Assembly (NCBI GenBank): GCA_964036045.1
Contig: OZ038383.1
Span: forward strand, 13,408,430-13,472,429
Reading direction: 5' to 3'
DNA: 64,000 nucleotides
DNA from: Eutreptiella sp. 'Long Island Sound 2002'
Lineage: Eukaryota; Euglenozoa; Euglenophyceae; Eutreptiales; Eutreptiaceae
Shown: positions 8,201-60,770 of the stretch, piece by piece
How the letters are laid out: every line of letters begins with the position of its first letter
Position numbering within the stretch: the stretch's first letter is position 1
Notes under the pieces: model-generated
Told to the model about the DNA's origin: nothing
Seen by the model: the letters and a program-made list of their open reading frames with translations, nothing else
Databases searched by the model: none
Made by a program: the position numbers and the translations under genes

Positions 8201-10092
8201 GTGGGGCTATGGCAGGATTGGGTCATCAGTTTGGGTGACAATATGAGTACATACGAACCCCTGGACGCAAGTTACACCTTCATGGTATCACCCGGCCATT
8301 GGTCCTGATGCTTTGCAGGTGGTCGCCATTAGTGCACATAATGAGAGCTCTTTCATCGAGGCAATGAATACGGTGTTCTTTGCCACGCATTTCTTTCGGG
8401 GCAATACAGTGGACTACTACAACCCGGAAAACTCTTTTCTCGACCAAGTATTGCAGAACAAAAAAGGTGCCACCCGTCTGCAGATTTATGAAGTTGCGTG
8501 CCTCCCAGTGCCAGTCCCCTGTACACGCCGCCCGCCCCTCAAATGTCTGCGCTTCAACCTCCCCCAAATAGAAATACATGCAGCTTATTTCCAGCCACAG
8601 AGGGGGGAGGCTGTATGCAACCAAGAACCACATTGTGAGAGCTGATGATTTTTCGGCAAGCCCCGTCCACAGTTTCAGTTGTTCAGAGGCTCAGTTTGGG
8701 GCTTGGTACCACGGTAATTGGCAACATACGTGCTGCATTGTGTGTGCACACCCTGTGCATGTGCTCCCCATCAGGTAGACTGGTCTGATGCATCGATGAT
8801 GGTGCCTCTTCCACTCAGGGGAAGCAAGTATTAGGGGAGTCCAACATCAAATGTTGCGCCTTGTGTTCAATTCTATGTGTGTTCATGCACCACTCCGTCC
8901 TCTTTTTCATAAAGGAGGGGCTCTGCATGACCGTCTTGTCACAACTGTTGCGATTCTTGGCATTGCACAAAATGTAACATGCATATCACAGTATACACAC
9001 ACACCCAATTCTTATGCTGCACAGGGCAAGGCTGAATCCCCGTTGCACACCAGATCCCTGCATGAGGAGTGATTTCTCTGGGCCCAGGGCTGTCCTTTAG
9101 GAGACTTTTTTTCTTCTTCCAATTTTCCTTAAGGACGGCACCCCTAGGGCCGGGTTACGGTGAAGGTCACCGAGCTGGTGGAAGTAATAAGGTTGTAGAC
9201 CCCTTTTGAGGGTGTAGGGTGGGGCCACCCCTGAGCACAAATATCAACGGTACAGGTGGTGGTGCAGGTGCAAGTACTCCTGCAAGTGCAGGTGGGTTCG
9301 TTCCCACGAAAATGGCAAAATACAGCATGTGTGTGGTGGGTGCATTGAAACCACGCCAGACGATGGGCAAACACTTTGGGTCACCTTTTGGTAGCTTGGG
9401 GACCGAGCCTGAGGCTTTCGTGAACCCTTTTTTGGCTCAAAGATGGCCAAACACCGCCAAATACAATGACCTGCAATGCCTACTTTTTGAAGATCAACAT
9501 ACTCTTGCCCATTGCCTTTTTGGAGCCTTATGGTTATGAATAATGATCAATGGGAACATTGGCAGGCCCTTTGCAGACCACACACCACTTCGTGCACAAC
9601 TACCGGGGGTCACCCGTGGGTCAAAAATTTGCACAATCATTCATCCAACTGTCCACCTGCTCTCCGATGCTTCTTCTGCAGGCAACCCCATTACCCTTTG
9701 TATCTTGTACATGGCAGTTGCACGCCGGGTGGGTCTCCACTTGGACCCAGTGGCGTTGCCCCGCCACGTCATTGTGTATTCGCCCCTGGACCAAACATAT
9801 GTTGACGTGTTCAACCGGGGGACTACCCTTGACACAGAACAGGCCCTGGGCCTGGCCACTGCACTTGCCGGCGAGAAAGTTTCCCCCGGGGTCTTGCTGC
9901 CGGCGGACACGCGGGCAGTGATGCAGCGGATGTTGCGGAATTTGAGTGGAATTTATGCCGAGAAGTCGAACATGGAGCTCCTGAAGCACACGAATGCGCA
10001 GCAGCAAATGATTCTGGACTGGGGATGGGATTTGGAAGCAGACCTGCAAAGGGGAATGCGGGCAGCAGATGGGGGAGGGAGGGCGGAGGAAG
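5213..10092 (+). CDS. FBXO21/SirB1-type transglutaminase-like protein (three exons, partial)
   Basis: Three exons join in phase: 5213-5425 (acceptor TACAG, donor GAG/GTAATG, phase 0), 8319-8466 (acceptor TTTGCAG, donor AAAAG/GTGCCA, phase 1) and 9682-10092 (acceptor TTCTGCAG, donor GAAG/GTAACT). Together they rebuild the Transglut_core2 fold shared by bacterial SirB1 and eukaryotic FBXO21. Exon 1 has the helical LENAALVIASW ... VDALAAE segment. Exon 2 has FRGNTVDYYNPENSFLDQVL. Exon 3 has GNPITLCILYMAVARRVGL, then PRHVIVYSP, DVFNRG (the family's D-P-F-N-G-G) and RMLRNL. In FBXO21 this domain lies between an F-box and a YccV-like hemimethylated-DNA-binding domain; I could not find either here. 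The upstream first exon and 3' exons are missing from the model. FBXO21 is a substrate receptor of SCF ubiquitin ligases; that role here is inference. Domain identity is secure from motif order. Confidence 0.85.
5426..8318 (+). other. Intron 1 of the FBXO21-like gene
   Basis: The intron begins GTAATG and ends TTTGCAG. It holds anonymous open frames; the most protein-like (about 6281-6420, plus strand) carries CPFCGERC and a later Cys, a possible zinc-binding fragment without clear splice sites. An alternative exon within this interval cannot be excluded, but the flanking exons already join in phase. Confidence 0.5.
8467..9681 (+). other. Intron 2 of the FBXO21-like gene
   Basis: The intron starts GTGCCA and ends CTTCTGCAG. 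It splits a glycine codon exactly between the FLDQVLQNKK and NPITLCILY segments, which are contiguous in the protein family. No other feature seen inside. Confidence 0.65.
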
Positions 10093-10700
10093 GTAACTGA
10101 CCCCGAAAGAGTGATTCTGAGGCCCAGGAAAACCACCAAAGTGTCCGATAGGGTTGTCCAAGGCAGGCAGCGGCTGTTGACAGATGAAGAGGGCTGTGGA
10201 GAGTCGTGACTGACACAGCTCTGCCTAACAAATCTCCACCACCCTGGGGAGGGGTGGAGTGGATGCTTGCCCTTGTCTGCAGTGGTCTTGCCTTAAGGAA
10301 GCAAAATTTCTTTGGTGCCATCTGAGGCAAAAGTTGTCCAGTGCCTTTTGACGCAAAAAAGTCGGGGGGGGGGCTGTCCCACAAGGGTTTTTTTGGGAGG
10401 GGGAGGGCGAACCCACCCACCTGAACCCCTGCTATTTACAGTACTGGTTGCAGGGTCGAAGGGGGCAATTTAGGCCAAAATAGTCAAGACCGACCTGACC
10501 CACCCACCCACCCGCCCGCCCCGGACTCCATTTCATGCCTGCATGCACGGCCTTTTCCCCCTTGACTCTTTATTTTTGTTTTCGTCCACTCTGCGTTTCA
10601 TCTTCTACACCTACCCTTTTCACTTCATGCTTGCCGTGGAACCCGTCTATCTTCGGCTGCAGCGCGCCGTTTGTATCTGAACGAGTGCACGCGGGCCCAG

Positions 10701-27952: not shown

Positions 27953-28920
27953 GTGGCGGAGGCCGTCGAACGCCTCGGGCAGGCAGTGCGGGGCGGCTGG
28001 GGCGCCGGGTACGACGCCAGTGTCGTGGGAGGTCTCAGCAAAACCACGCTGGACGGGTACCTGGGGGCCCTCGCGAAACTTCGAAGGCGCGAGCGCATGC
28101 AGCCGGGATGCGACAGGAGGCGCGTGCTGGAGGACGAGCTCGGCGACATCGCTGCCCAGGACGTGGGGGAGGGCAACATCAAAAAGCTGCTCTCAGGGGT
28201 ACGACTACTCGAGAAGCTGGGATGGATCAAGGGCACAGTGCGGCCTGGAGACTGGTACCTCGTCCTGGGGGTGGAGAAAGAGAGACAGCGGCAGGGGAGG
28301 GGCGCGGTCAAGGAGTGGGCCAGCATGGAAGCGCTGCGGTACATGGCGGGCGTCGTGCACACCAAGGCAGAGTGGGAAATCCTAGCGCTGGCGGCCTTGA
28401 CCTGTGCACAGTGCCTCAGGGCGAGCGAAGCGATCACGGCCCGCGCTGAGGGCAGCGAGCTGGTGTTCCGGGGGACCAAGTCCCGCAGCGGCGAGCAGCG
28501 GCAGGAGATGGGGCAGTGGACGGCAAAGTGGGCCGCATTCTTGGCGCGGCTCAGGGCCAGCCATGGGTACCACCCCGACGTCCCTGCGTGGTTCCAGGGG
28601 ACGGACGGGCTACACAGGTGACTGCACGGCATTCTGGACCGGCCCGGTGGGTCCTTCAAGTATCTGCGCTGGCACTCTTTCCGGAGGTTCGGGGCGACCC
28701 AGCTCCGCGGCCTCGGGCTCCCAGTGCGGTTCATCATGGTTCGGGGGGGGGGGGTGGAAGTCGGCGACAATGGCGGAGATATACTACAAGGCGCCGCCGA
28801 GATGGCAGTTCGAGCGAGGGGGACCCATCCCCCCGCCAGAGTACGGGACAAGCGCAACGACGGCGCGGATGCAGCCTTGGACGACGCTGGGGATGTGGCC
28901 AAGCTGGATCGAGAGTGAGC
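27953..28920 (+). pseudogene. Tyrosine recombinase of the YR retrotransposon, frame-broken
   Basis: The N-terminal SAM-like core-binding region reads LSKTTLDGYLGALAKLRRRE. Box I is TCAQCLRASEAITA with catalytic Arg at 28,418. Box II is WHSFRRFGATQLRGLGLP with His at 28,673 and Arg at 28,682. The tail GGWKSATMAEIYYKAP supplies the nucleophile Tyr (28,782 or 28,785). Two lesions separate these: an in-frame TGA at 28,619 and a frame change in the 12-G run at 28,743-28,754. After the Tyr the sequence goes on with DVVEIEDSPE, a SUMO-interaction-like motif, and a basic patch. With both lesions the copy cannot make the full enzyme unless the G-run length is a sequence error and the TGA is bypassed. 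Confidence 0.75.
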
Positions 28921-29159
28921 TCGAGATCCCCCATGTCCGACTTGCTCGGGCAGAGCCGAGTCCGGAGGGCGGTACTGCCCCAGTGCAAAAGCGATCACGC
29001 ACGGAGTCGCCAAAGAGAGACGTCGTCGAGATCGAGGACTCGCCAGAGGGGCCACCGACCAAGACCGTCAAGCGCCAGAGGGGGGCAACGCCAGGGGCGC
29101 GGAGAAGACTGCCGGCAGACGGCGGGAGCGCAGGCAAGCCGGACGGAGAAGCGGTCGTC

Positions 29160-31086
29160 GGTGCGCCAGCATCACAGGGACGCGGGGGAGGTGACGATCG
29201 AGGACGAGCGCCTGGCGCGTGCGATCAGCGAGCTGCCGGGAGTGAAGCGAGGCCGCAGGGACATGGTCCACAAGGGCGTCCAGGAGCTGATCATGGCGGC
29301 GGCGCAGCTCACGCTGGGCCACGGTGACGCCACTGCGAAGCTGCGGGTCGCGATGCAGGGTGTGCTGGACGACGGGCTGGACGGCGAGGAGGACGGATAT
29401 TACTCATCGGAGGACGAAGACGAGATCGATCCGGAGACGGCGGCAAAAGGACTCGGGTCGGTGGGCCGTGTGCACGTACATGTGCCGCTCTGGAGGAGGC
29501 TGGTGCCACAGGACCTCCTGAGGGCTTACGAGAAACACGCCAAAGCCGGGGGGGCCAACCTAAAGTCGCACTGCACTAAGCTCCCGCTCATGATGCGGGC
29601 CCTGCACGTAGACGCGCGGGGGGTGAAACGCACGCACCTCACGCCCACCTCTCGGGCATTCCTACGCCCCACGAATAGGCAGAAGTGTAGGATGATATTA
29701 GATGCGTCTCCCATCAACGGGGCAGACACCGGACGGCCCCAAAAATTCACCCTCCCGGGCCTGGAACAACTCAGGGACTTGATGCGGGGGGGGGGGGGGG
29801 CCGCGTGGATGGCCAAACTCGACCTGCAGAATGCATTTTGGAGCGTCGTACTCCCGAGGGGTTGGCGCAGGGTTTTTGTTCTGCAAACCGCCGACAGGCG
29901 GTCATACCGCTACACGCGCCTGCCCTTCGGATGGCGCTACTCCCCCCTCATATGCCAGTCCCTTGTCCGTGGCATCGTGGCTGCCGCCCTGCGAGGCGTG
30001 CGGGCCCGGGCGTGGGTGTATATAGACAACATTCTCGTCACCGCTCGCAGTCCATCCGAGGTGCGGTGCGCAGTGCGGCTCATCATCCGGCGCCTGCAGC
30101 GGGCGGGTTTTATAATTAGCCACAAAAGCGAAACAACACCCACAATGGAGCTGCGCTTCATTGGCAAACACATAAACACAGATGCAGGATCCTTTCATAA
30201 CGCCCCAGGCGGGCTGCGCAGTGCGCTCCGCGCGTGGGTAAGAGCCATGGGCCGTCGAACCATCGAGCCCCGCAGGCTCAGGAAGCGGCTTGGGCAGCTG
30301 TGCTGGCTTTTGAGGCCCAATGCAGGGCTCTTCTGCTTTATGGCGGGGAGCTATCAAGCACTGGACTCGAGCACGCGGTGGTTCACACGAAGTATGGCGC
30401 GGGGCCTCGGCACGGTGCTCCTGTTCAGCGCCGTAGCGCAGTCTTACCCGCCGGACGGCCACGAGGGAGGGCTGCAGCAGATGCCAGGCAAGAGAGACCT
30501 CCTGCTGTTTGCCGACGCGACGCCAGATGGAGAGCGGTTCAGGGTAGGGCTAGTGGGCGACAGGCGATTCCGCCGCTCCATACGATGCCCGGCATGGGTC
30601 ACATCGCTACAGCAGGCAGAACTTTTCGGCATATACTATGCATGTAAAGTTCCCGTCTACCGCGGCCACAGGTCCGTGGTGGTCGGCACAGACAGCGACG
30701 CCAGCAGGTTCTAGGTGGCAGGACAAAGGGCCACTGCTTGCTCTCAGGCCCACCAGAGAATTCTCAGGCGCCTATTCTGGCTCCGGCTTTGGAGCCACGT
30801 CAAACTCGGTGTGTTTCGGGTCAATACTGCGGAGAACCCCGCAGACCCGCTCAGCCGCCTGCGTACCTTTCCCAGCAGGCGGCACGCTGTCCAGGACGCC
30901 AATGACAGGCGTCAGCTCTGGGAACGCAGCGCACACAAATTTCTGCATCTCCGTTATCTGCCTCAGGCCCCTTGGAGTTTAGCAAAGGGGGGGGGGGGGG
31001 GTGACAAAGGCCAGCACAGGACCAGCGTGAGTCCGGGGCTCGCATTCGCGAGCACTTTGTGCAGTCGGTCCATGGAGGAATCCTGA
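29160..31086 (+). pseudogene. Reverse transcriptase-RNase H of the YR retrotransposon, YIDN active site
   Basis: The frame (open from 28,516; plausible protein from about 29,160) shows RT motif A AKLDLQNAFWSVVLP, the motif YTRLPFGWRYSPLICQSLV, and motif C VYIDNILV (Y at 30,019) where the second catalytic Asp is Asn. RNase H follows with LLFADATPDG (Asp 30,514), SLQQAELFGI (Glu 30,619) and VVVGTDSDAS (Asp 30,691). A TAG at 30,712-30,714 interrupts it; the same frame continues with HQRILRRLFWLRLWSHVKL and VNTAENPADPLSRL, the usual end of this RNase H type, to a stop at 31,084. The isolated TAG marks this copy as defective, or at most recently inactivated. Confidence 0.85.
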
Positions 31087-31514: not shown

Positions 31515-31516
31515 AT

Positions 31517-31544
31517 TGTACCCTTCGTGAACCGGCCGTTTGAA
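31517..31544 (+). repeat. Left terminal inverted repeat of the transposon
   Basis: TGTACCCTTCGTGAAC, then CGGCCGTTTGAA. It pairs with 38,431-38,467; the right copy carries an 11-bp internal insertion that repeats the GGCCGTT core. Confidence 0.85.
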
Positions 31545-31704
31545 TCCGAGATTCACGGTACTGTGAATTTCACCCAATTTTGCTGTGTTTTGCTCGTAAC
31601 TTGGTGCTATCGTGTGCTTTTGTCGTGCTACCTTCGCCCAAAGTAAGATGCAACAAATAGGTGCAATTTAGAGGTTTAAAGTCCCCGCATGGTTTAACAC
31701 ATTT

Positions 31705-31850
31705 GGTGAGATTCGCGTGAATGTGAAATTCACGCACCTAAATTCACGCAGAAATTCACGGTAGATTCACAGATTCACGAGAATGTGAAATTCGCACGAA
31801 TTTCGTACGAATTCGTACGAATTTCGCACGAATTTCGCACGAATTTACCC
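31705..31850 (+). repeat. Subterminal palindrome cluster I
   Basis: Repeated GAAATTCACG, TTCGCACGAA and TTCGTACGAA motifs, most of them self-complementary and each containing CpG. It lies just upstream of the first gene, where it could act as transposase binding sites and promoter-proximal DNA (inference). Confidence 0.8.
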
Positions 31851-31911
31851 TCCTTTCCACTCTTTCGCTTTGTTACAGCTCTCAAAGCCCTCGCGTTCTT
31901 CTCTTTTAACA

Positions 31912-34900
31912 ATGTCCCAGCAGACTATGTCCCAACTCGCAAGCCTGGCCTCGCACCCCGACCCCGCAGCCGACACCCTCGCCCACTACCAAGCCCTCCC
32001 CGTTGCCCACCATCAATTGGAGGAGGCAACGTACGAGTCGGGGGCACTGGGGGTGGATGACATCGTGGGCTGGGCAGCCTCCCTCGACCCCTCCCCCGAT
32101 GTCATCCACATCGACATGCGCAGCCCCACCCGCAACAGCTACCTCGGGGGGAGGGGATGGGCCACAACCCTGTGGAGGGAGCTGCGCCGCCAACTCCCCT
32201 CCCTCAAATTTCTCCATCTAACCCCTCTCCCCTCCAGTGTTGACCAGCTCCTCAACTCGATGAGGACTAACCCTGTGGGGAAGCCTAAGGACGCCCACGT
32301 CCAGGTGTACCCCACCACTAACCTCGTCCACACCCCCCCCAATTGCGATATGGTGTGCCTGCAGGATCTTGCTGCAGGTGCACCAGCAGACCACTCTTTT
32401 TTCCCCTTTTCTTGGCACCTTGCCAACCCCCGGTGGTGGGATGATTTGGGCATCGCCCCTTTCCATCCCACCATCCCCCCCCCAGCTGCACGTCCCCGAC
32501 GTCACCCACCCCACCTTCTATAGCACAACTTCTTTGCAATGGTACCGTGGTGCCTCATGCGCCCCCCCCTTCATTTCAAGTGAGCCCCCCGTCCGCACCG
32601 AACCCCTTCCTGACCCCCCTCATGGGGTGATGGGCAGCCCTGACCCCGCCCCCGACAGGGTTGGCCCCTCTCAGCCGCCCCTCAACTTTGTTGATGGGAA
32701 CGGCTACATTGTGCTTTGGGGGCTTGTGGAGGCAAGGAATTGTGAGGTGGGGTGGAACAAGGTGATGAAGGCGTGGGGCAGCGGCGACGAAAAAGTCGTC
32801 GCAAAGAATTTTGAGCTCCTTTTCAACGCCGCGCGGAGTGAGGAGCAGGCCAAGGATCCTACGCTCCCCCGCCGTTGGCAAAGCAAGAGCACCTTGGGGT
32901 CGGGGGTGGGGGGGGGGCCCTCTTCAAGAAGTTCCACCCCCACCTCACCGAAAGTGTCCCTGGGGTTGGGGACCTCCACCCAATGACGCCGGGCAGCGTC
33001 ATTGTGGCCAGTGTGGGGAGTGGGTCGCAGCTCCCCCACACCGACGTGGCCACCCACCCCGAGGTCCTCCCCCCCCACGACAGGGAGGAGGGGGACTGCC
33101 ACCTGAGTAGCTTCCTCTGCTTGTCAGAGGAATACCAGGTGGCTGTGCAGGCGGGGACGGCCCTGGGGGAGGCGGGGGAGGCGCGCCGGGACACCGTTGA
33201 GCTGCATCGGGGTGACATGCTGCTGATGGTGGCCACCAGCCGCCATCATGGGTTGCCTGTCCTCCCCGACTCCAAGGATGGGCTGCAGGGGGCTCTTTTT
33301 AACTTGTGGACCCCCGACGCCCGACACAAACACCACCAGGCCAACACCACACACTTGGACGCCACCCCCCCCAAGGAGGCCCTGGACGTTGCTGGGGATT
33401 TGTCCAGCTGGGACTGCCCCAGCGTGGACCAGGTGTTGTGGGTGGGGAAGGGGGCGGTTGGGAGGGTGGGGTTGTGGGAGGGGGAGGCTGCCCAGGCCCT
33501 CTTCGCCGACCCCCCCCAGACGGTCCCGGCAGGCCCCCCCACCTGCCCCTTCCACCCCACCTTCATCTCCCGGTCGATCCCGGCCTCCGACCTCGCCGTC
33601 ATCGAGGTCAGCGAGCAGTGCATGCTGTTCTTCGTGGGCAGTGTGCACCAGCTGGAGGTCTGCAAGGGGGGCAATGTCGATGCGGAGTCGGAGATCCACT
33701 TCGCCATGTCCGGCATTGCCCCCCCGGGTCGGCCGACCACGCTGTGGCACCTGGTGAACACGGTCCCAGCGTGGCGGTCGCCCAAGTGCGCGAAGACCGG
33801 GGCATGGAGCATCACCTGCCCATGCGAGTGCAAGGTGTGCTGGCTTGTGTGTTTGCTTTGTGTATTGGCAAATTGGACGAAATTCACGTGAAATTCGTAC
33901 GAAATTCGTACGAATTTCGTACGAATTTCACGTGAATAAATTTGTGTGAATATTCTGGAAATGTGAAATTCGTACGAGATTCGTACGAATTTCTGTGAAT
34001 TTCGTCCAATTTGCTCCTTTTGCTCTTGCATTGCCTCGTGTCCACTCCCCCTTTCTCAATTTGTGCCCGGCACACCTCCCCACATCTGTAGGTCCCGTTC
34101 ACCGCTTGGTCGCCGGATATTCGGCACCACACCAAGCGCAAGTACAAGCCCCGGCCCCGATTGCCCGAGGAGCACGCCGAGCCCGCCGAAGGCCCCGGTG
34201 GCGACCAGCCCGCAGGCACCGGCGGTGGACGGGCGCCAAGCGAGGCCGGCAGTGTGCGGAGTGAGGGGTCGCAGCGCTCTCGGCGTTCGGGAGGCAGCGG
34301 GGCCAGCATCGCCAGGGGGCATGTGGCGCGCGAGGTGGTGGTGCCCCAGCCGTCCCGCGACGAGTTGGGCGACGCCCACAACGACCCCCCCCCTGGACCG
34401 GGTCACCCTGGCCGCCAGGCAGCCGGATCCGGCCTGGACCCTGCAGGTGCCGCCCGGGCCGGATGGGCGGCAGCGGCATCTCAGTGCCGTGTGGGACATG
34501 GTGTTGGAGTCGCGGGGGGTGCAGGGCACCCTCCGCATCTCCTTCCCCTGCCCCATTGTGGTCCGGGGGGGGGGCCAACCTGCCTGCGGGGCAGGAGCTG
34601 GTGGGCATGTTTGCCTACCGGCTTGTGAGTGGGCACTGGCGGGTGCAGACGGGGGTGGCGCGGACTGGGGAGGCGGAGACGGTGACGACGGCTGGGGTTT
34701 TTGGGCTGAATGTGCTCACGGGTTGGGAGCAGCGGAGGGCGGAGTGGGTGGACGTGGCATGGCTTGCCATGCGCGTCCATGTGGGGAGGCAGCGGAAGAT
34801 GGGGGTGGCTGACGTCATTGACGTCGAGGAGGACGAACCCCCCCCCACGCGCAAGCGCAAAGGGCGCCCCGAAGGGGACACGCCCCCCCCCCCCCAAAAG

Positions 34901-35482
34901 CCCCGCGTACGGCCACCCCGGCGGAGCGGGCAGTGCGGGCGGAGCAGGCGGAGCCGGTGGGGGGGCGGGGGCAGAGGGGGGTGGTGCAGGAGTGGGTGGA
35001 CCAGCAGCGGGCGGGGGCGTGGGAGGCACGCGCGATTAGCGCGGAGGCCGCCAACCGCGACCTCGAGGCCCGTCTGTCCAGGGCCAACGAGGACAGGTGG
35101 GACTGCGAGTCGCGGTTGGCGGACGTCACCAAGGAGCGTGACCGGCTGGCCACCAAGGTGAAGACTCTTGAGCGCGACGTGGCGACGCTGCGCAAGGCAA
35201 AGCCAGCGGCACAGCCAGCAGAGGCAGTGGAGAGGGCTGAGGGTGCCGAGGCCCCCGCCCCCCCCGGGTGACAACGGGGGGGCCAGTGCTGCCGGTGTCC
35301 GGTACCTCCTGGCCGGCGCACAGGCCTGGCATGCCCAGGCCGAGGCATGTGCCGGCCAGATGTCGGCAGTGTCCACCGGCCTGCGGATGGCCATGATGGC
35401 CAGTGGCCAGCAGGTCGATGTGGACAGCGTGGCCCCCGACGCCCCCAAGGTGACTGCTGCAATGGAGGACGTGCGCCGGTAG
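31912..35482 (+). CDS. Transposon-encoded 2OG-Fe(II) oxygenase-like protein, multi-domain
   Basis: About 1,100 residues if frame changes are accepted; exon 1 31,912-33,834, intron 33,835-34,091 (phase 0, ECK/VPF), exon 2 from 34,092. The first ATG has AACAATGT context. Residues 1-330 are unassigned. The core around residues 360-460 has PHTDV (33,037, the H-x-D Fe pair), RHHGLP (33,244, distal His) and GALFNLWTPDAR, the order of a double-stranded beta-helix dioxygenase of the TET/JBP, AlkB or prolyl-hydroxylase type; the usual Arg of the 2OG site is not obvious. Then come CPCEC, an unassigned domain (GMFAYRLVSGHWRVQ), VADVIDVEEDE (SUMO-interaction-like) with TRKRKGRP (NLS-like), and a coiled coil (35,000-35,220). 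Frame changes fall at homopolymers 32,475, 32,908, 34,385, 34,565, 34,883 and 35,258. Sequence after the TAG at 35,480 stays open to 35,601. Substrate unknown. Confidence 0.6.
33835..34091 (+). other. Intron of the oxygenase-like gene containing palindrome cluster II
   Basis: Donor AAG/GTGTGC at 33,834/33,835 and acceptor CTGTAG at 34,086-34,091 join TGC AAG to GTC CCG without a frame shift. The intron body, 33,877-34,010, is a near-perfect large palindrome: GGACGAAATTCACGTGAA at its start is complemented by TTCTGTGAATTTCGTCC at its end, with TTCGTACGAA units between. Confidence 0.75.
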
Positions 35483-35967
35483 TACCCCCCCCACCGCCTC
35501 ACGTCGGCGGCCATGGACCCCTCCTTTGTGGAGGCGGTGGGGGAGCAGAGCTCCCAGGGCTCCGCTAGCCGGAGCTCTGCTCCAGGGGGTGGGGGTGCGT
35601 AGCTGACCCTTTACCCTCCGGACCACCTATCCTTTCTAACCACCACGAATGTTATCCTGCCCCCCCCCCCCCAAGCATGGGCAGTTTGACCGACATGTGG
35701 GGCACTCCCCCCCCACTGTGCGAAATTTTCTGCAGCACTGTTTGTACATTATTTGGGGTACGCTATGCCCCCTGACCTGTTTGCGATATTTTCTGCGGAA
35801 CTATTTGTATTTTATTTGGGGTATGCTATGCCCCCTGACGTGTTACACTGCTGGCTGAGTGTCAGCCAGAATGACAACCACTGGACTGGGTGTGTGATAA
35901 CCCATGTGCACCATCCTGCGCTTGCTTTGTGAGGGTCAACGAGGGCAGAAGGATGAGGCTTCGGCAG

Positions 35968-36150
35968 AAATTCTGTGAGAGTCATGTGAAATTCGTACGA
36001 AATTCGTGCGAAATTCGTACGAATTTCGTACGAATTTCGTGCGAATTTCACATTTTCAGAATATTCGCACATTTCCGTTCACGTGAAATTCGCACGAAAT
36101 TCGTACGAAATTCGTACGAATTTCGTGCGAATTTATGTGAATTTCTTCCA
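35968..36150 (+). repeat. Palindrome cluster III between the two transposon genes
   Basis: Two back-to-back groups of TTCGTACGAA and TTCGTGCGAA units, with TTCACGTGAA and CATGTGAA flanks, separated by CAGAATATTCGCAC. It sits about 100 bp upstream of the transposase start codon, a natural place for promoter or autoregulatory binding (inference). Confidence 0.85.
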
Positions 36151-36251
36151 ATTGCATGCAAATCACAGTAGAGAGAGTGGTCTGCGGGAGGGGGATGGTA
36201 GAAACCTTGCGATGACTGCCTCCCCATTCAACAAGTCTTGTATCTCACACC

Positions 36252-38015
36252 ATGCCGCGGCCCAAGGAGCCATTCCATCTGCTAGCGGATCGTACACGAC
36301 GGCGGCGCCTGCAAGAGCTCCAGGAGGTTGTTACCAAGGAGCTTGCAGCACCCTACACCGTCAAGTACCTGCCCGACACGGGGCAAATAGTGCTTACCCC
36401 CGAAACAAGAGTTGTAGCCACCGTCCAGCCTGAGCCCACCCAGGAGGAGAGGTTGATTACGGCCGTCTGGAGGATCCGGTCATTGCACCTCTCTAGGACG
36501 GAGTCCCGGTACCTAGTGGGGAGCATGACGTACGGTGTGGTATGGGACCAGGTGTACGGCATGCTTCGGCAGCTAGCATTGCCGGAGTCCCGGGCGTTCA
36601 CCGCCTATACGGGAGACGACACGGCCATCAATGGTGCGGCCTGCTACCTACCTGACCGCATCGGCCACCTATTCAAGTGTCGACCACCCCCACCCTCGGC
36701 CATCATGCAGCCCGGGGACCGACGGCTGCATTGGTTGCCTATTGCGGTGGACGGTACATCGAGGCATGAGGCCTCGTACGTCCATTGCACGCTTGGTGGC
36801 ACCGCCAGCCCCAACCAACTATCTAGTTGGTGGCTACTAGGGGGCAGTGAAAAGTGGGAGACCCTCTACGCGGCCTCCCAGGAAATTGATTTTGATGATG
36901 AGTTGCGCAAGGCCGCAACCGTAAGTTTTAAGGATACGGCAGGGAACGATAGGCAGTCCCTTTTTTTTCTGTGTGCAGATGGTAAAGCACAGGTGCTCAT
37001 GGCGGGCTGCCAAAACTGGAAGGCAGAATCCCCTGGTGCCACTGTGTGTTGGGTCTGCATGCGTAACCGTGCTCTGTGCCTTGCTACCTTTGGCACAGCA
37101 AGTGCGATAGACGGCAACTGGGAACCAGCCGTTGCCATAAATGCTATATATAGGACCATTACGAGTGATAGGCGAGTGCCTGATTATGGCCTCCATGGGG
37201 TCCTTCGTGTCCTGTGGTGTGCAGTCAACGGGACACGGGACCTAGTTGTACAATTGACAGGGAAGGCACCGGCCACTGTGGCACGCACCATGCTGCAACC
37301 GGTTCTAGATGAGGCACGGCTTGCTGCACGAACTTGCACCCGTGCCTCATTAAATAATGACAAGGCAAACAGCAAGGGGAAGGTGAGGATGGAGTGTGCT
37401 GTTGCCATCCATTTCATGCAGAATAGGGGTTGGGAGAAGATAATAGATGCTTGCCTAGAGCAGCCTAGTGTGAGGCAGCATCAAGTAGGGGGAAAAAGTT
37501 GGGAGTCGGTGTGCAAAACGTGGTGGGAGAATTTTGCAAGCATGTGTGTATACGCGTGGCGTTCCGCATGGTTCTCCGGGGCCGACTTGGGGCGGCTCCG
37601 GAACCATAGCATAGCCATGGGCGCTGCCCACAATGAGCTCCAGTGGGGCAAACTTCTGTGGACGCATCTTTGGATCGACCACATGTATTATTTTGCAAAG
37701 AAGTGGAGAATCTTGTCAAAGTTCTCCTGCTTTGCCATGGAGGGAAGTCACCGGAGGCTGAAGCGCATGTTGCGCAACAGCGGGGGCCTAAGCCTCCTCC
37801 GGGGGAGACTAGGGGTGCAAGTGGTTGTGGACAACCACACTATTGACGATAGCCTTTGGTTGCATGGGTGGGATGCGACCAAAAGGGCTCAACATGGGCA
37901 AGGGGCCATAAGTGTACAAACGTATGCAAGCCGCACAAGAAGACGGCTTCTAACCGACATGCAGCACCTTCAGACTCTACAGCGGCGGTTCCGGTGCCGC
38001 AAGAGACGGACATGA
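36252..38015 (+). CDS. DDE transposase candidate with RAG1/Transib-like zinc and acidic layout
   Basis: One uninterrupted frame of 587 codons starting at an ATG after CTCACACC. The N-terminal 150 residues are basic and helical (RTRRRRLQELQEVVTKEL). A first acidic site is in LPIAVDGTSR (D167), a second in FFLCADGKAQVL (D243), followed by CWVC (C266, C269). Later come H472 and H477 (THLWIDHMYYF) and E497 in CFAMEGSHRRLKRMLR. D-D-C-x2-C-H-x4-H-E, with E exactly 20 residues after the second His, reproduces the order and part of the spacing of RAG1 (D600, D708, C727, C730, H937, H942, E962). Overall similarity is too low to name the superfamily; CACTA/Chapaev/Transib relatives or the KDZ group are alternatives. 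It is the only intact large ORF of the transposon and would supply cutting and joining. Confidence 0.7.
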   Translation: MPRPKEPFHLLADRTRRRRLQELQEVVTKELAAPYTVKYLPDTGQIVLTPETRVVATVQPEPTQEERLITAVWRIRSLHLSRTESRYLVGSMTYGVVWDQVYGMLRQLALPESRAFTAYTGDDTAINGAACYLPDRIGHLFKCRPPPPSAIMQPGDRRLHWLPIAVDGTSRHEASYVHCTLGGTASPNQLSSWWLLGGSEKWETLYAASQEIDFDDELRKAATVSFKDTAGNDRQSLFFLCADGKAQVLMAGCQNWKAESPGATVCWVCMRNRALCLATFGTASAIDGNWEPAVAINAIYRTITSDRRVPDYGLHGVLRVLWCAVNGTRDLVVQLTGKAPATVARTMLQPVLDEARLAARTCTRASLNNDKANSKGKVRMECAVAIHFMQNRGWEKIIDACLEQPSVRQHQVGGKSWESVCKTWWENFASMCVYAWRSAWFSGADLGRLRNHSIAMGAAHNELQWGKLLWTHLWIDHMYYFAKKWRILSKFSCFAMEGSHRRLKRMLRNSGGLSLLRGRLGVQVVVDNHTIDDSLWLHGWDATKRAQHGQGAISVQTYASRTRRRLLTDMQHLQTLQRRFRCRKRRT

Positions 38016-38124
38016 GATCACCTTACGAACCCAGACCATTGTTGCCTGTGACCGGGGTGCATGCTGGGGGGCTTACTAGGGGTGTGAGGACAAATCAGGG
38101 GGTGCACACCGGTAACATTTGTGT

Positions 38125-38215
38125 AAATTCACGTGAATTCACGTGAAATTCGTACGAAATTCGTACGAACTTCGTGCGAATTTCGTACGAATTCACGTGA
38201 ATTCACGGCTGTGAA
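38125..38215 (+). repeat. Subterminal palindrome cluster IV
   Basis: TTCACGTGAATTCACGTGAA followed by TTCGTACGAA units and closed by TACGAATTCACGTGAATTCA; mirror-like about its centre. It mirrors cluster I near the opposite end. Confidence 0.85.
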
Positions 38216-38430
38216 TCGGCTACAGGCTTGCCGGGTTCCGGCACCTCTCGTTTTGGGCACGGTTCGGACATGATGGATGCTTTTGGGGCGGGACTTTCAT
38301 TGGATGATGCGTAACAAAGCTAGGGGAGGAATTTTGGCCCCTCAAAGCCCTTGGAATGAACCAAGAATATGGCATTTTCCCCCAAAAACCTCAAAATTTG
38401 GGTAAATTCACGTGAAATTCACGCAATTAT

Positions 38431-38467
38431 TCAAACGGCCACTTAACGGCCGTTCACGAAGGGTACA
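38431..38467 (-). repeat. Right terminal inverted repeat of the transposon
   Basis: TTCAAACGGCC, an 11-bp extra segment, then GTTCACGAAGGGTACA, the complement of the left end. A further GTGAAATTCACG block lies just inside. Confidence 0.85.
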
Positions 38468-38469
38468 AT

Positions 38470-55407: not shown

Positions 55408-58400
55408 GCCATGGCGCAGGGCATCCATGTCTTGGAAGAAGAAGTGCAGCGGCTGCAAGTTGACCTGGCGAAGTTGGAGCAGCGTGTGGAGGAGACGTGC
55501 TCGGATTTGATCCATGATATTGACGATGATGAAGAGGACGATTTCTCCAGCCTAGGAGTATGTTTATCCCCATACCACAACCACCACACATTGTTTTTCA
55601 TCAATGCAACACGTGTACACCCAAACCCATACCCATACTGGTGACCCTCCATAGTATGATAATAGGCAGTTCAACACCTGTACACACAAAAATGACAGGG
55701 TGGCCTCTGAGGAACCCTTTTTTCAAATTTTATTGCTCTTGGCAAGTCCACCTCGTAGAGAATTGGCCTTAACAAGATACCACAACGTTGCCCAACAATG
55801 GAATCCGCGCAGCATTCGCTGGTCGCATGTGGCACATTGTAAAATGACTTCCCTTTATCCTCCCCCCCTCCCTCAGCACCCAATGGCCAAATAAGATGAA
55901 AACACATAAAGAGGGCCTAACTACATGCTTTGTTTGTGATATTTGTCATCGTGACAATCATCACAACAATGTCAAAGGACATCAAGACGCATCACATCAC
56001 ACTTATCAAAAGTGCGGCTTTCGAATTTTCGATTTTTTAGCTATTGAGGCTGAAAAATGCCCAGATGGCTTCTGCACCAGCTCTTTAACCGCCCCCCCCC
56101 CCCCACCATACCCATTTAGGTGTGCACTGTGCGTGGCGTTATACACCCGCTTGCCCCCCCGTGCCTGTATTTTCTGATTCCTTTCTTTACTCTAGCGATT
56201 CTTTGAATCGGTCTTCAAGTGCCCGCAGTGCATGTGTCAGTGTTTTAGGCATCGTCATCTTTGATTTGCATTTGCCTGCTGCACACAGGGCCCTACTACT
56301 GACAGCGGCGAGTGCCAAACTACCGACAGTGGCGAGTGGGCCATGAGCCCCAAGACCGAGAATGGCCATGAGAGGCGATCCACTGCCTCTGAGTCCACCC
56401 CAGGCAGCCCCTTGACTCCACTGCTAGTGCAAACTGGCATCCCGCAGCCTACATGTCAGCTGACAGTGCCGTCTGCAAACCTGCCTTCAGCAATGCTGGG
56501 CACAGAAGAACCCGCGACTCGGATGCAGAAGCATTCACCACAGATGGCACGGCGCATTCATGAGCCTGCCTTGGAGCATGCACTGCAGACCGCCCCGCTG
56601 CCTTCTGGAGAGGAAGAGGGAAGGAGCCAAGAAAGGGAACAAAGGGGAAATGGGGAGAGGAGAGAATGTTTTGAGGCGAAGGACAAAGGCAAGGGAAGAC
56701 AGCCATTGCAGCCCACGGAGTACCCAGATTCTGCTCCGCCATCTACTACACAACACAACATGGGGCCCATTTCAACCCTACATACATCACAACAGCACAC
56801 ACCAGCTGATTGCATGGCAGTTTTGACCAGACTCGGGTTCGATGTATATTTCAACGGTTCACTTGTCAACAACGATTGCGACGTTGTTCGCAATGCACAT
56901 CTTGCACCGAGGCTTGTATTGCAACCTGCACCACGCCCTGCACCACGCCCTGCAGCACAGCCCGCACCGCAGCATGCACGACAGCCTGCATCACACCTTG
57001 CGCAAACCTCGCTCCCACAGCGCGGGGCACAACGTATGTTAGCGCCAACAGTTGCATCTGAGGTGGTCCCACACCCTGCAGATGCTTCACTGCCCCAGCC
57101 CATACAGCAACCTGGGTCAGAGCCAGTGGTTGCATCTGAGGTGGACCAGGACTCCCCGAAGCCCTCATATCCACAACCCACGGGGCAGCCCACATCAGAG
57201 CCAATGATTGCATCTGAGGTGGACCAGCACTCCCCAAAACCCTCATTTCCACAACCCACGGCGCAGCCCACATCAGAGCCAATGACTGCATCTGAGGTGG
57301 ACCAGGACTCCCCAAAACCCTCATTTCCACAACCCACGGGGCAGCCCACATCAGAGCCAATGATTGCATCTGAGGTGGACCAGCACTCCCCAAAACCCTC
57401 ATTTCCACAACCCACGGGGCAGCCCACATCAGAGCCAATGATTGCATCTGAGGTGGACCAGCACTCCCCAAAACCCTCGTTTCCACAACCCACGGGGCAG
57501 CCCACATCAGAGCCAATGACTGCATCTGAGGTGGACCAGGACTCCCCAAAACCCTCATTTCCACAACCCACGGGGCAGCCCACAACAGAGCCAATGACTG
57601 TATCTGAGGTGGACCAGGACTCCCCAAAACCCTCACTTCCACAACCCACGGCGCAGCCCACATCAGAGCCAATGATTGCATCTGAGGTGGACCAACACTC
57701 CCCAAAACCCTCATTTCCACAACCCACGGGGCAGCCCACATCAGAGCCAATGATTGCATCTGAGGTGGACCAGCACTCCCCAAAACCCTCATTTCCACAA
57801 CCCACGGGGCAGCCCACATCAGAGCCAATGATTGCATCTGAGGTGGACCAGCACTCCCCAAAACCCTCATTTCCACAACCCACGGCACAGCCCACAACAG
57901 AGCCAATGACTGCATCTGAGCCGGACCAGCACTCCCCAAAACCCTCATTTCCACAACCCACGGGGCAGCCCACATCAGAGCCAATGATTGCATCTGAGGT
58001 GGACCAGCACTCCCCAAAACCCTCATTTCCACAACCCACGGCGCAGCCCACAACAGAGCCAATGATTGTATCTGAGGTGGACCAGGACTCCCCAAAACCC
58101 TCACTTCCACAACCCACGGCGCAGCCCACATCAGAGCCAATGATTGCATCTGAGGTGGACCAGCACTCCCCAAAACCCTCATTTCCACAACCCACGGCGC
58201 AGCCCACATCAGAGCCAATGATTGCATCTGAGGTGGACCAGGACTCCCCAAAACCCTCATTTCCACAACCCACGGGGCAGCCCACATCAGAGCCAATGAT
58301 TGCATCTGAGGTGGACCAGCACTCCCCAAAACCCTCATTTCCACAACCCACGGGGCAGCCCACATCAGAGCCAATGACTGCATCTGAGGTGGACCAGCAC

Positions 58401-60770
58401 TCCCCAAAACCCTCATTTCCACAACCCACGGGGCATCCCACATCAGAGCCAATGGTTGCCTCTGAGGTGGAACAGCACTCCCCGAAGCCCTCATATCCAG
58501 AGCCGACGGCGCAGCCCACATCAGAGCCAATGATTGCATCTGATGTGGACCAGGACTCCCCAAAACCCTCATATCTACAACCCACGGCACAGCCCACAAC
58601 AGAGCCAATGATTGCATCTGAGGTGGACCAGCAATCCCCGAAACCCTCATTTCCACAATGCACGGGGCAGCCCACATCAGAGCCAATGACTGCATCTGAG
58701 GTGGACCAGGACTCCCCAAAACCCTCATTTCCACAACCCACGGCACAGCCCACAACAGAGCCAATGACTGCATCTGAGCCGGACCAGCACTCCCCAAAAC
58801 CCTCACTTCCTCAACCCACGGGGCAGCCCACATCAGAGCCAATGATTGCATCTGAGGTGGACCAGCACTCCCCAAAACCCTCATTTCCACAACCCACGGC
58901 GCAGCCCACATCAGAGCCAATGACTGCATCTGAGGTGGACCAGCACTCCCCAAAACCCTCATTTCCACAACCCACGGGGCAGCCCACAACAGAGCCAGTG
59001 GTTGCATCTGAGGTGGAACAGCACTCCCCGAAGCCCTCATATCCACAACCCACGGGGCAGCCCACATCAGAGCCAATGATTGCCTCTGAGGTGGATCAGG
59101 ACTCCCCGAAGGTCTCACTTCCAGAACCCACGGGGCAGCCCACATCAGAGCCAATGATTGCATCTGAGGTGGACCAGGACTCCCCAAAACCCTCATTTCC
59201 ACAGCCCGCGGGGCAATACACATCAGAGCCAATGATTGCATCTGAGGTGGACCAGGACTCCCCAAAACCCTCATTTCCACAACCCACGGGGCAGCCCACA
59301 TCAGAGCCAATGATTGCATCTGAGGTGGACCAGCACTCCCCAAAACCCTCACTTCCTCAACCCACGGGGCAGCCCACATCAGAGCCAATGATTGCATCTG
59401 AGGTGGACCAGGACTCCCCAAAACCCTCATTTCCACAACCCACGGGGCAGCCCACATCAGAGCCAATGACTGCATCTGAGGTGGACCAGGACTCCCCAAA
59501 ACCCTCATTTCCACAACCCACGGGGCAGCCCACAACAGAGCCAGTGGTTGCCTCTGAGGTGGAACAGCACTCCCCGAAGCCCTCATATCCAGAGCCGACG
59601 GCACAGCCCACATCAGAGCCAATGATTGCATCTGAGGTGGACCCACACCCTGCTGAATTCGCACTTCCACAACCCACGGCGCAACCAACATCGGAGCCTA
59701 CGATTGCATCCGCGGTGCACCCACCACTCACAGAGGTCTCACTCCGACGGTTCCCACCACAGGCTACACCGCAGCCAACTGAGGTCGACCTACATGCTAC
59801 AGAGGCCTCACTCCCACAGCCCACATTACAACCAACATCAGAGGAAGTCGTTGCATCTGAGGTGCACGCATACTCTGAGCCCGTGAGTTTCATGCACTCC
59901 CAGCCTTCCCCACGTATATCACCATGTTTTGCAGCAATGGACCTGCCAGACCAACACTCATACACGCCACGTACCCCCAAATCCAACCCCACCTCTGTCC
60001 ACGCAGAGGCGCCACATCGGCGTACAGGGACTGCGTTGGAACAAAGGCACAGCTTTGGCGCATGCACTATGCAGTGGCAGAGAGGGAAAAGGAAGTGCGC
60101 CCCACATGCGACCTCATCCTCCAGTCCTGGACAACACCCCAAACCGCAAGACAGAACGCTACGCAGAAGATCGATGTCAATGCCTCTGTCAACACTATGG
60201 CCGACACCTGCATCCGAAGCCCCACCACCCTACCCAGTGGCTGTCACAAAGCCCACCGATGCCCCCGTCCCGTTAGCAATGGCCTCTATCACCCCCACGG
60301 CAGCCCCGCCGCCGTACCCAGTGGCTCTCACAGAGCCCACCGATGCCCCTGTCCCGTTAGCAATGGCCTCCATCACCCCCACGCCCTCCTCACTCCAGAC
60401 AGCCCATCCCGGGACAGACCTTTCCACCGGCCTCAGCTCCCCTGTCCTGCAGCGCCCCCCCCACACGGCGTCCACAGTGTCCATGTCACACAGTCCACAG
60501 GGTGTCGCATGGGCTACATGCGGCGGGGCCCTTGGTGCAGCAATCGAGCGCACATGCAGCACCCCTGTGGCGGCCTCCCACCGCTTTGTCCCACACCCCT
60601 TGCCCGGTCCCCCATGTGCAGATGAGCCTCTGTGGGCCTCCGCCCCCCCACCCCCACCCCCGCCACTGAAATATTACTACCGCTGCTATACAATAAGGCA
60701 CCCTCCACGGTCTCCCCGCAACCCGCCGTTGGGCGCTGGGGAGGCGACCCGACCTCCCCAGCACCGATAA
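55408..60770 (+). CDS. Gene with a coiled-coil exon and a 33-copy Pro/Ser-rich repeat exon
   Basis: Exon 55,408-55,557 (acceptor CTCACAG, donor GGA/GTATGT, 50 codons, phase 0) encodes AMAQGIHVLEEEVQRLQVDL, AKLEQRVEETCSDLIHDIDD and an acidic end: a coiled coil. A large exon from the acceptor GCACACAG at 56,288 is in the same phase and stays open to a TAA at 60,768; its first ATG is 56,343. Counting from that ATG, residues 1-260 are Ser/Pro/Gln-rich with a KxxxRE-rich charged part, residues 261-1118 are 33 tandem 26-residue units (consensus EPMIASEVDQHSPKPSFPQP plus TGQPTS), and the rest is Pro/Ser/Thr-rich with two 28-residue repeats. No signal peptide or transmembrane segment is visible. A small exon near 56,194 (RFFESVFKCPQCMC) may lie between. 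Likely an extended, disordered protein; function unknown. Confidence 0.6.
57123..59696 (+). repeat. Coding minisatellite, 33 units of exactly 78 bp
   Basis: The first unit starts CCAGTGGTTGCATCTGAGG at 57,123 and the thirty-third at 59,619, exactly 32 x 78 bp later, with no indel between. Substitutions are concentrated in a few codons (I/T/V, Q-H versus Q-D, F/Y/L, G/A, S/T), so variants recur in blocks, as expected of unequal exchange or gene conversion. Confidence 0.95.
60231..60398 (+). repeat. Two tandem 84-bp coding repeats
   Basis: TACCCAGTGGCT at 60,231 recurs at 60,315; the 28-residue unit (YPVAVTKPTDAPVPLAMASI TPTAAPPP) is duplicated with two changes. Confidence 0.85.

Follow-up and report, generated by a model that had tools for sequence, protein, structure and literature searches.

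We analysed a 64,000-nucleotide stretch of the euglenophyte Eutreptiella sp. 'Long Island Sound 2002' (contig OZ038383.1, positions 13,408,430 to 13,472,429; the window in what follows) and found that it holds a complete DNA transposon of 6,951 bp (31517..38467, + strand). The element carries two co-oriented genes, an accessory gene with an oxygenase-like core (gene 1) and a gene for a DDE (Asp-Asp-Glu) transposase (gene 2), together with arrays of short palindromes. That this is a real transposon carrying both genes is, after comparison of its copies, practically certain. From its conserved residues, gene 2 very probably encodes a transposase of the CACTA/Plavaka/Transib (CMCT) type, while the motifs of gene 1 lean somewhat towards a 2-oxoglutarate (2OG)-type oxygenase. 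Our best explanation overall, which we put forward tentatively, is a CMCT transposon equipped with a self-targeted anti-silencing protein. TET-bearing fungal transposons are already known; what is added here are the palindrome arrays and a sister family with a different site, TTCGCGCGAA.

A complete transposon with two genes

A preliminary description of the window had proposed matching inverted termini around the two genes. A 16-bp terminal inverted repeat (TGTACCCTTCGTGAAC) indeed lies at 31517..31532 (+) and, identical, at 38452..38467 (-); within it, GTACCCTTCGTGAAC is exact at 31518-31532 (+) and 38452-38466 (-), the sole two matches in the window at up to 3 mismatches. Because 1.17 such matches per window are expected by chance at this laxity, the terminal pair alone is weak evidence. 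Copies of the element were fetched from the same genome, a 2.28-Gb eukaryote assembly of 2205 contigs. The transposase gave 74 scored matches genome-wide, the window counted (a lower bound, with 8579 first-look candidates), and 20 further copies with their flanks were picked from the 73 other places listed. Eleven of them cover the element end to end, one (L024) covers 31575-38370 and eight are truncated or internally deleted; all 20 are without internal transposase stops, which makes the estimate of transposase intactness optimistic. The aligned copies end at, or a few bases inside, 31517 and 38467. The ends read TGTACCC...GGGTACA, and an exact 2-bp target-site duplication flanks 17 of the 18 elements that show both ends (17 fetched copies and the window, of 21 copies), with a 3-bp duplication in none of the 18. 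The duplication has no fixed sequence (CA, TA, GG, GA, AG, AT, TT, CG and TG among copies) and is AT in the window (31515..31516 and 38468..38469). Whole copies reach 99.6% identity to one another, and the element has therefore moved recently.

Both genes recur with these ends. The oxygenase-like core is kept in 14 of the 20 transposase-centred copies and missing from six, and the left terminus stands at the expected distance in all 12 loci that were centred on the oxygenase core instead. These 12 are the best of 138 scored core matches genome-wide (window counted; again a lower bound, with 3760 first-look candidates); two of them, the window and L009, are already counted elsewhere, and their right ends lie mostly beyond the fetched stretch. 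The earlier proposal of inverted termini enclosing two co-oriented genes, and of a mobile element encoding both, is thus upheld by the exact 15-mers and by recurring ends and duplications, and the termini of other copies likewise enclose the oxygenase-like gene. Transposase copies are also clustered locally, in both orientations, at two places of the assembly (G000 C15:20.45-20.53 Mb and C3:170.96-171.74 Mb), a pattern that local hopping or segmental duplication would produce.

The transposase and its lineage

Gene 2 (36252..38015, + strand) encodes 587 amino acids; the preliminary description had placed this open reading frame exactly, and its suggestion of a DDE enzyme agrees with the conservation of D167 (36750-36752), D243 (36978-36980) and E497 (37740-37742) among relatives that reach down to 36% identity (P0044). 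The conserved order is D167, D243, C266-x2-C269, H472-x4-H477, E497. Counted over the 28-42 sequences that cover each column (47 aligned), every one of these residues is kept in at least 82%: D167 in 39/42, D243 in 37/42, C266 in 36/42, C269 in 39/42, H472 and H477 in 28/29 each, and E497 in 23/28. Comparison of the transposase with Pfam and PDB gave nothing meaningful (best E 0.093 and 0.7), its PHROGs rows were at chance level, and its AlphaFold model was poor (pLDDT, the predicted local distance difference test, 50), with no Foldseek match at E ≤ 0.001.

The passages of Kojima 2025 drawn on here (PMC12730594) mark the CMCT clade by C(2)C and H(3-4)H motifs placed between the second D and the E of a DDE triad, and the 587-residue protein has both motifs in that place. 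The same passages give PlavakaA TGT..ACA termini with 2-bp duplications, CACTA/EnSpm elements CAC..GTG termini with 3-bp duplications, and the Kyakuja, Dileera and Zisupton (KDZ) elements duplications of 7 bp (Kyakuja) or 8 bp (Dileera and Zisupton). With TGT..ACA ends and 2-bp duplications, the element looks like PlavakaA at its ends, in termini and duplication length, and it differs from CACTA/EnSpm in both respects. The motif order D-D-C(2)C-H-E described for Plavaka is also that of its transposase. A lineage other than KDZ, as the preliminary description had suspected, is borne out by the duplications (2 bp in 17/18, against 7-8 bp) and by C(2)C and H(4)H.

Oxygenase genes have been found in such company before: TET/JBP genes occur in 11 fungal transposon lineages, their function being called unvalidated, and they are carried by some PlavakaB families, the TET-bearing Plavaka of these passages all being PlavakaB (Kojima 2025, PMC12730594). 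The element differs from these in that its gene 1 gives no Tet_JBP match. TET-bearing KDZ elements described there likewise combine a DNA transposon with an oxygenase gene, but differ from ours in the duplications and transposase motifs given above. The matches listed in a search of open-access titles and abstract openings, with subscription literature mostly outside it, include one paper given over to DNA transposons with TET/JBP genes, and no DNA transposon with a non-TET oxygenase appeared among them.

Gene 1 and its oxygenase-like core

Comparison of copies indicates that gene 1 (+ strand) consists of exon 1 (31912..33834), with N-terminal alpha/beta and oxygenase-like regions, a predicted phase 0 GT-AG intron (33835..34091), and exon 2 (34092..~35602), with a basic GRP stretch, which we take to be AT-hook-like, and, as judged by eye, a coiled-coil-like region. 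The donor GT is present in 11/11 copies compared and the acceptor AG in 16/16 where it was found, the window in both. Across copies exon 1 has 640 codons and exon 2 about 500, for a protein of about 1,150 amino acids; both exons are open in two fetched copies, L014 (640 + 513 codons) and L023 (640 + 505), and exon 1 is open in six of the 15 copies with both exon ends found. The window copy is among the broken ones, with six frame changes at poly-C/G runs near 32475, 32908, 34385, 34565, 34883 and 35258-35282, where the frame is uninterrupted in copies with open exons; these breaks are either mutations or homopolymer assembly errors. Of the span 31912-35482 first given for the gene, the start stands and the end does not, since 35482 closes a stop of the window copy (35480-35482) and exon 2 runs to ~35602.

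The candidate double-stranded beta-helix core (32998..33315, + strand) is drawn from motif and conservation among 56 relatives, the structure model giving no confirmation. 2OG-Fe(II) oxygenases (TET/JBP, PHD2, P4H, PhyH) have an HxD...H iron triad, a basic residue nine positions past the last H, and a GD strand. The H-x-D ... H pattern that had been noticed first is present in gene 1, as H-x-D at 33037-33045 (H 33037-33039, D 33043-33045) and a later H at 33247-33249, followed by K at 33274-33276; in the numbering of the relative P0047 these are H375, D377, H445 and K454. Gene 1 thus matches the iron-triad pattern, although this is a short motif and prone to chance. Among the 56 relatives H375 and D377 are each kept in 51 and H445 in 55, and position 454 is K or R in 53/55; H445 ranks 4th of the 130 core columns in conservation. 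The basic residue nine past the last H presumably corresponds to that of PHD2 and IPNS, and the Q-x-x-H-x-D context is one that we take to fit 2OG enzymes, nearer the PhyH type than TET. An HxD...H...R/K motif with a GD-hydrophobic strand before the last H arises in 0.27% of shuffles of the protein, a pattern that was picked post hoc.

These same points speak against the strongest alternative, namely that gene 1 is a TnpA-like DNA-binding accessory protein and no oxygenase, its HxD...H having arisen by chance in a protein rich in His, and that its binding to the arrays would help transposase assembly or chromatin opening. We regard this as rather unlikely, though a serious contender, and a number of results favour it or count against the oxygenase reading. 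Bare HxD...H...R/K arises in 83% of shuffles of the gene 1 protein and, unless the GD strand is counted in, has no value as evidence. H375 and D377 (0.91 identical) lie close to the median core column (0.89), at ranks 50 and 51 of 130, and at position 458, where the 2OG-binding Arg of such enzymes would be aligned, Q stands in 46/55 and R in 8. A Pfam scan of the 56 members gave nothing meaningful (five families, each in 1/56, best E 0.011), with the Tet_JBP profile in 0/56 at E ≤ 10, so that TET/JBP membership is unsupported by sequence; against PDB sequences gene 1 had zero matches, and its PHROGs rows were at chance level. The motif is thus like that of TET/JBP and other 2OG-Fe(II) oxygenases, yet profile and structure matches are absent. 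In the AlphaFold model (pLDDT 44) four strands were placed at 408-465 (block pLDDT 38-77), the HxD part was unmodelled and a beta-helix was absent, and Foldseek returned zero matches at E ≤ 0.001; a model as poor as this speaks neither for nor against an oxygenase. Both AlphaFold models being poor, their Foldseek lists were given zero weight, and matches to LH3, a 2OG enzyme (E 0.33-0.58, ranks 16, 17, 39 and 49), stood alongside many unrelated folds and were left uncounted. A TnpA protein with subterminal repeats is, moreover, classic for CACTA elements. It is because AlphaFold failed on the domain, and because the motif is chance-prone and the fuller pattern chosen post hoc, that we hold the oxygenase reading only a little above an even chance.

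Searches of protein databases for relatives of gene 1 outside the element gave 33 and 125 matches (120 of the 125 listed); none among those listed lay outside the element family, all having 'ena' as source and being apparent family members, and none was seen in the viral_contigs scans. A reading of the confident N-terminal part of gene 1 as a leucine-rich repeat was dropped, as the match was not found.

Selection on the two genes

We then compared the two genes by their ratios of nonsynonymous to synonymous polymorphism (pN/pS). The transposase is clearly under purifying constraint (0.26, 0.16-0.41, in 21 copies, and 0.22 when only the six whose exon 1 is intact are used) and gene 1 overall weakly so: pooled over the six intact copies exon 1 gave 0.61 (0.43-0.88), with clear constraint in its N-terminal 240 codons (0.46, 0.29-0.74), and exon 2 gave 0.76 (0.58-0.99) in seven copies. 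Constraint on the core is not demonstrated, which again suits a TnpA-like protein better than an oxygenase: its ratio is near 1 and not clearly below it in six copies (0.94, 0.46-2.41), and 0.64 (0.35-1.12) in a larger set (of its 28 loci 17 were open and 16 could be used, the L011 row being a wrong match with gaps over the core).

A true oxygenase could also have been captured from the host and be a passenger, or act on a substrate other than DNA (histone, RNA or transposase). The weaker constraint on exon 1 than on the transposase when both are measured over one set of six copies, the broken exon 1 in 9/15 copies (window counted) and the absence of the core from 6/20 all point this way. Yet exon 1 as a whole stays below 1, and P0047, which has the core, represents 193 member sequences (90% cluster), showing that versions with the core have spread; in addition L035, a deletion copy with both ends, retains the oxygenase exon (exon 1) though most of the transposase is gone. 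We judge a passenger or non-DNA role unlikely.

Palindrome arrays and a sister family

Palindromes of the TTCGTACGAA type form four arrays in the element, one in front of gene 1 (31712..31843) and the others within its intron (33883..33989), between the two genes (35992..36131) and at the 3' end (38128..38201, with an extra site at 38407). All 14 occurrences of TTCGTACGAA in the window, and 30 of 32 degenerate sites, are inside the element. Each of the 13 aligned copies (the 11 whole fetched copies, L024 and the window) has 24-35 such sites in the same four placements, the 3' array being shrunk to single sites in L014, L015 and L017. Within arrays, steps of 11 bp make up from 16/23 (L017) to 19/22 (L014), a spacing of one helical turn, as would be expected if bound proteins all sat on the same side of the DNA. 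Between gene 1 and the third array, a 63-bp unit also occurs twice in tandem (35719-35844, 87% alike).

The arrays also bear on whether the element could be an artefact, with unrelated genes lying between chance inverted repeats or joined by nested insertion, which is hardly conceivable: the inverted pair is near chance level per window when mismatches are allowed and long inverted repeats do occur inside the element, but the latter are the palindrome arrays themselves, and the identical ends, gene order and 2-bp duplications of copies on many contigs refute it.

A sister transposase (59% identity over 76%) gave 93 scored matches, the last two of which belong to the first family. In two sister copies, L041 and L042 (G000 C5 and C17), read in their 1.5-kb flanks, a related gene 1 C-terminal half lies upstream of the transposase. 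With uncorrected composition the alignment in L042 reaches 29% over 355 columns (E 1e-31, inflated by biased composition); after correction and masking the best segment there keeps 30% identity across 63 residues (E 2e-5) and L041 gives E 0.002, both against an 8.7-kb target. Behind the sister transposase TTCGCGCGAA stands at 11-bp steps, twice in L041 and three times in L042, with no TTCGTACGAA seen in these flanks; L042 carries a TGTACCC-type end. An altered array next to a related C-terminal half is what one would expect were the binder and its site to evolve jointly, and the array code may perhaps already be split between two families of one genome, TTCGTACGAA versus TTCGCGCGAA. No oxygenase core was paired with a sister transposase at 3-kb spacing, as judged by eye among the best matches only.

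A possible self-targeted anti-silencing system

The genome looks CpG-methylated on indirect grounds: the observed/expected ratio of CG dinucleotides (CpG) in the window is depleted at 0.61, and among copies CpG transitions (0.0102) are about twice as frequent as other C/G transitions (0.0047). On such a background we propose an autonomous cut-and-paste transposon of the CMCT clade in which the product of gene 2 would act on the observed TGTACCC...GGGTACA ends and insert with the observed 2-bp duplications. In the large accessory protein of gene 1 the middle would form a 2OG-Fe(II) oxygenase domain, the likeliest reading of that part, and the C-terminal half a basic, coiled-coil-like DNA-binding part that may bind the element's own phased palindrome arrays. 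Once bound, the oxygenase would oxidise methyl marks carried by DNA or chromatin and thereby keep the promoter, the intron and the ends accessible both to transcription and to the transposase. By analogy with known systems, this anti-silencing function of gene 1 is possible, but we hold it more loosely than the oxygenase itself.

Plant CACTA/EnSpm elements (TnpA/TnpD) have two genes and subterminal repeat arrays, and their accessory protein is thought to counter methylation. Our element is alike in its two genes and subterminal arrays, and differs by its non-CACTA termini and by the oxygenase-like stretch in the accessory gene; the most economical plan is a CACTA-like transposase with an array-binding accessory protein, to which an oxygenase-like domain has been added. 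In the passages drawn on here, VANC of Arabidopsis binds fast-diverging non-coding tandem repeats of its own elements and removes silent marks (PMC10398659), VANDAL being a MuDR-type element (PMC12730594). The layout described there, an accessory gene with family-specific non-coding repeat regions, resembles that of our element and suggests the same idea, here with an enzyme added. To our knowledge the VANDAL/VANC system has no oxygenase.

A more specific version, in which gene 1 is a novel eraser that couples an oxygenase of 2OG type, belonging neither to TET/JBP nor to AlkB, to a half that reads the phased arrays of its own family, each family stripping silencing marks from its own copies only, is distinctly improbable, slightly more so because no more than 2-3 sites make up the array seen in the sister family. 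With an oxygenase-like gene, likely binding sites and a changed-site sister family in one genome, self-targeted anti-silencing becomes directly testable and, if true, a new oxygenase family could join those acting on chromatin.

Other features of the window

Three further features lie outside the transposon. An open reading frame of 732 amino acids with a reverse transcriptase domain (28516-30714, + strand; RVT_1, E 1.2e-17) ends 0.8 kb before it. Further downstream, an array of 33.5 copies of a 78-bp unit (57117-59729) lies inside an open frame of 1475 amino acids (56343-60770), which had zero Pfam matches at E ≤ 1. Finally, the open reading frame at 9543-10100 (+ strand) has a Transglut_core2 domain (E 2.7e-20) and is probably part of a host gene.

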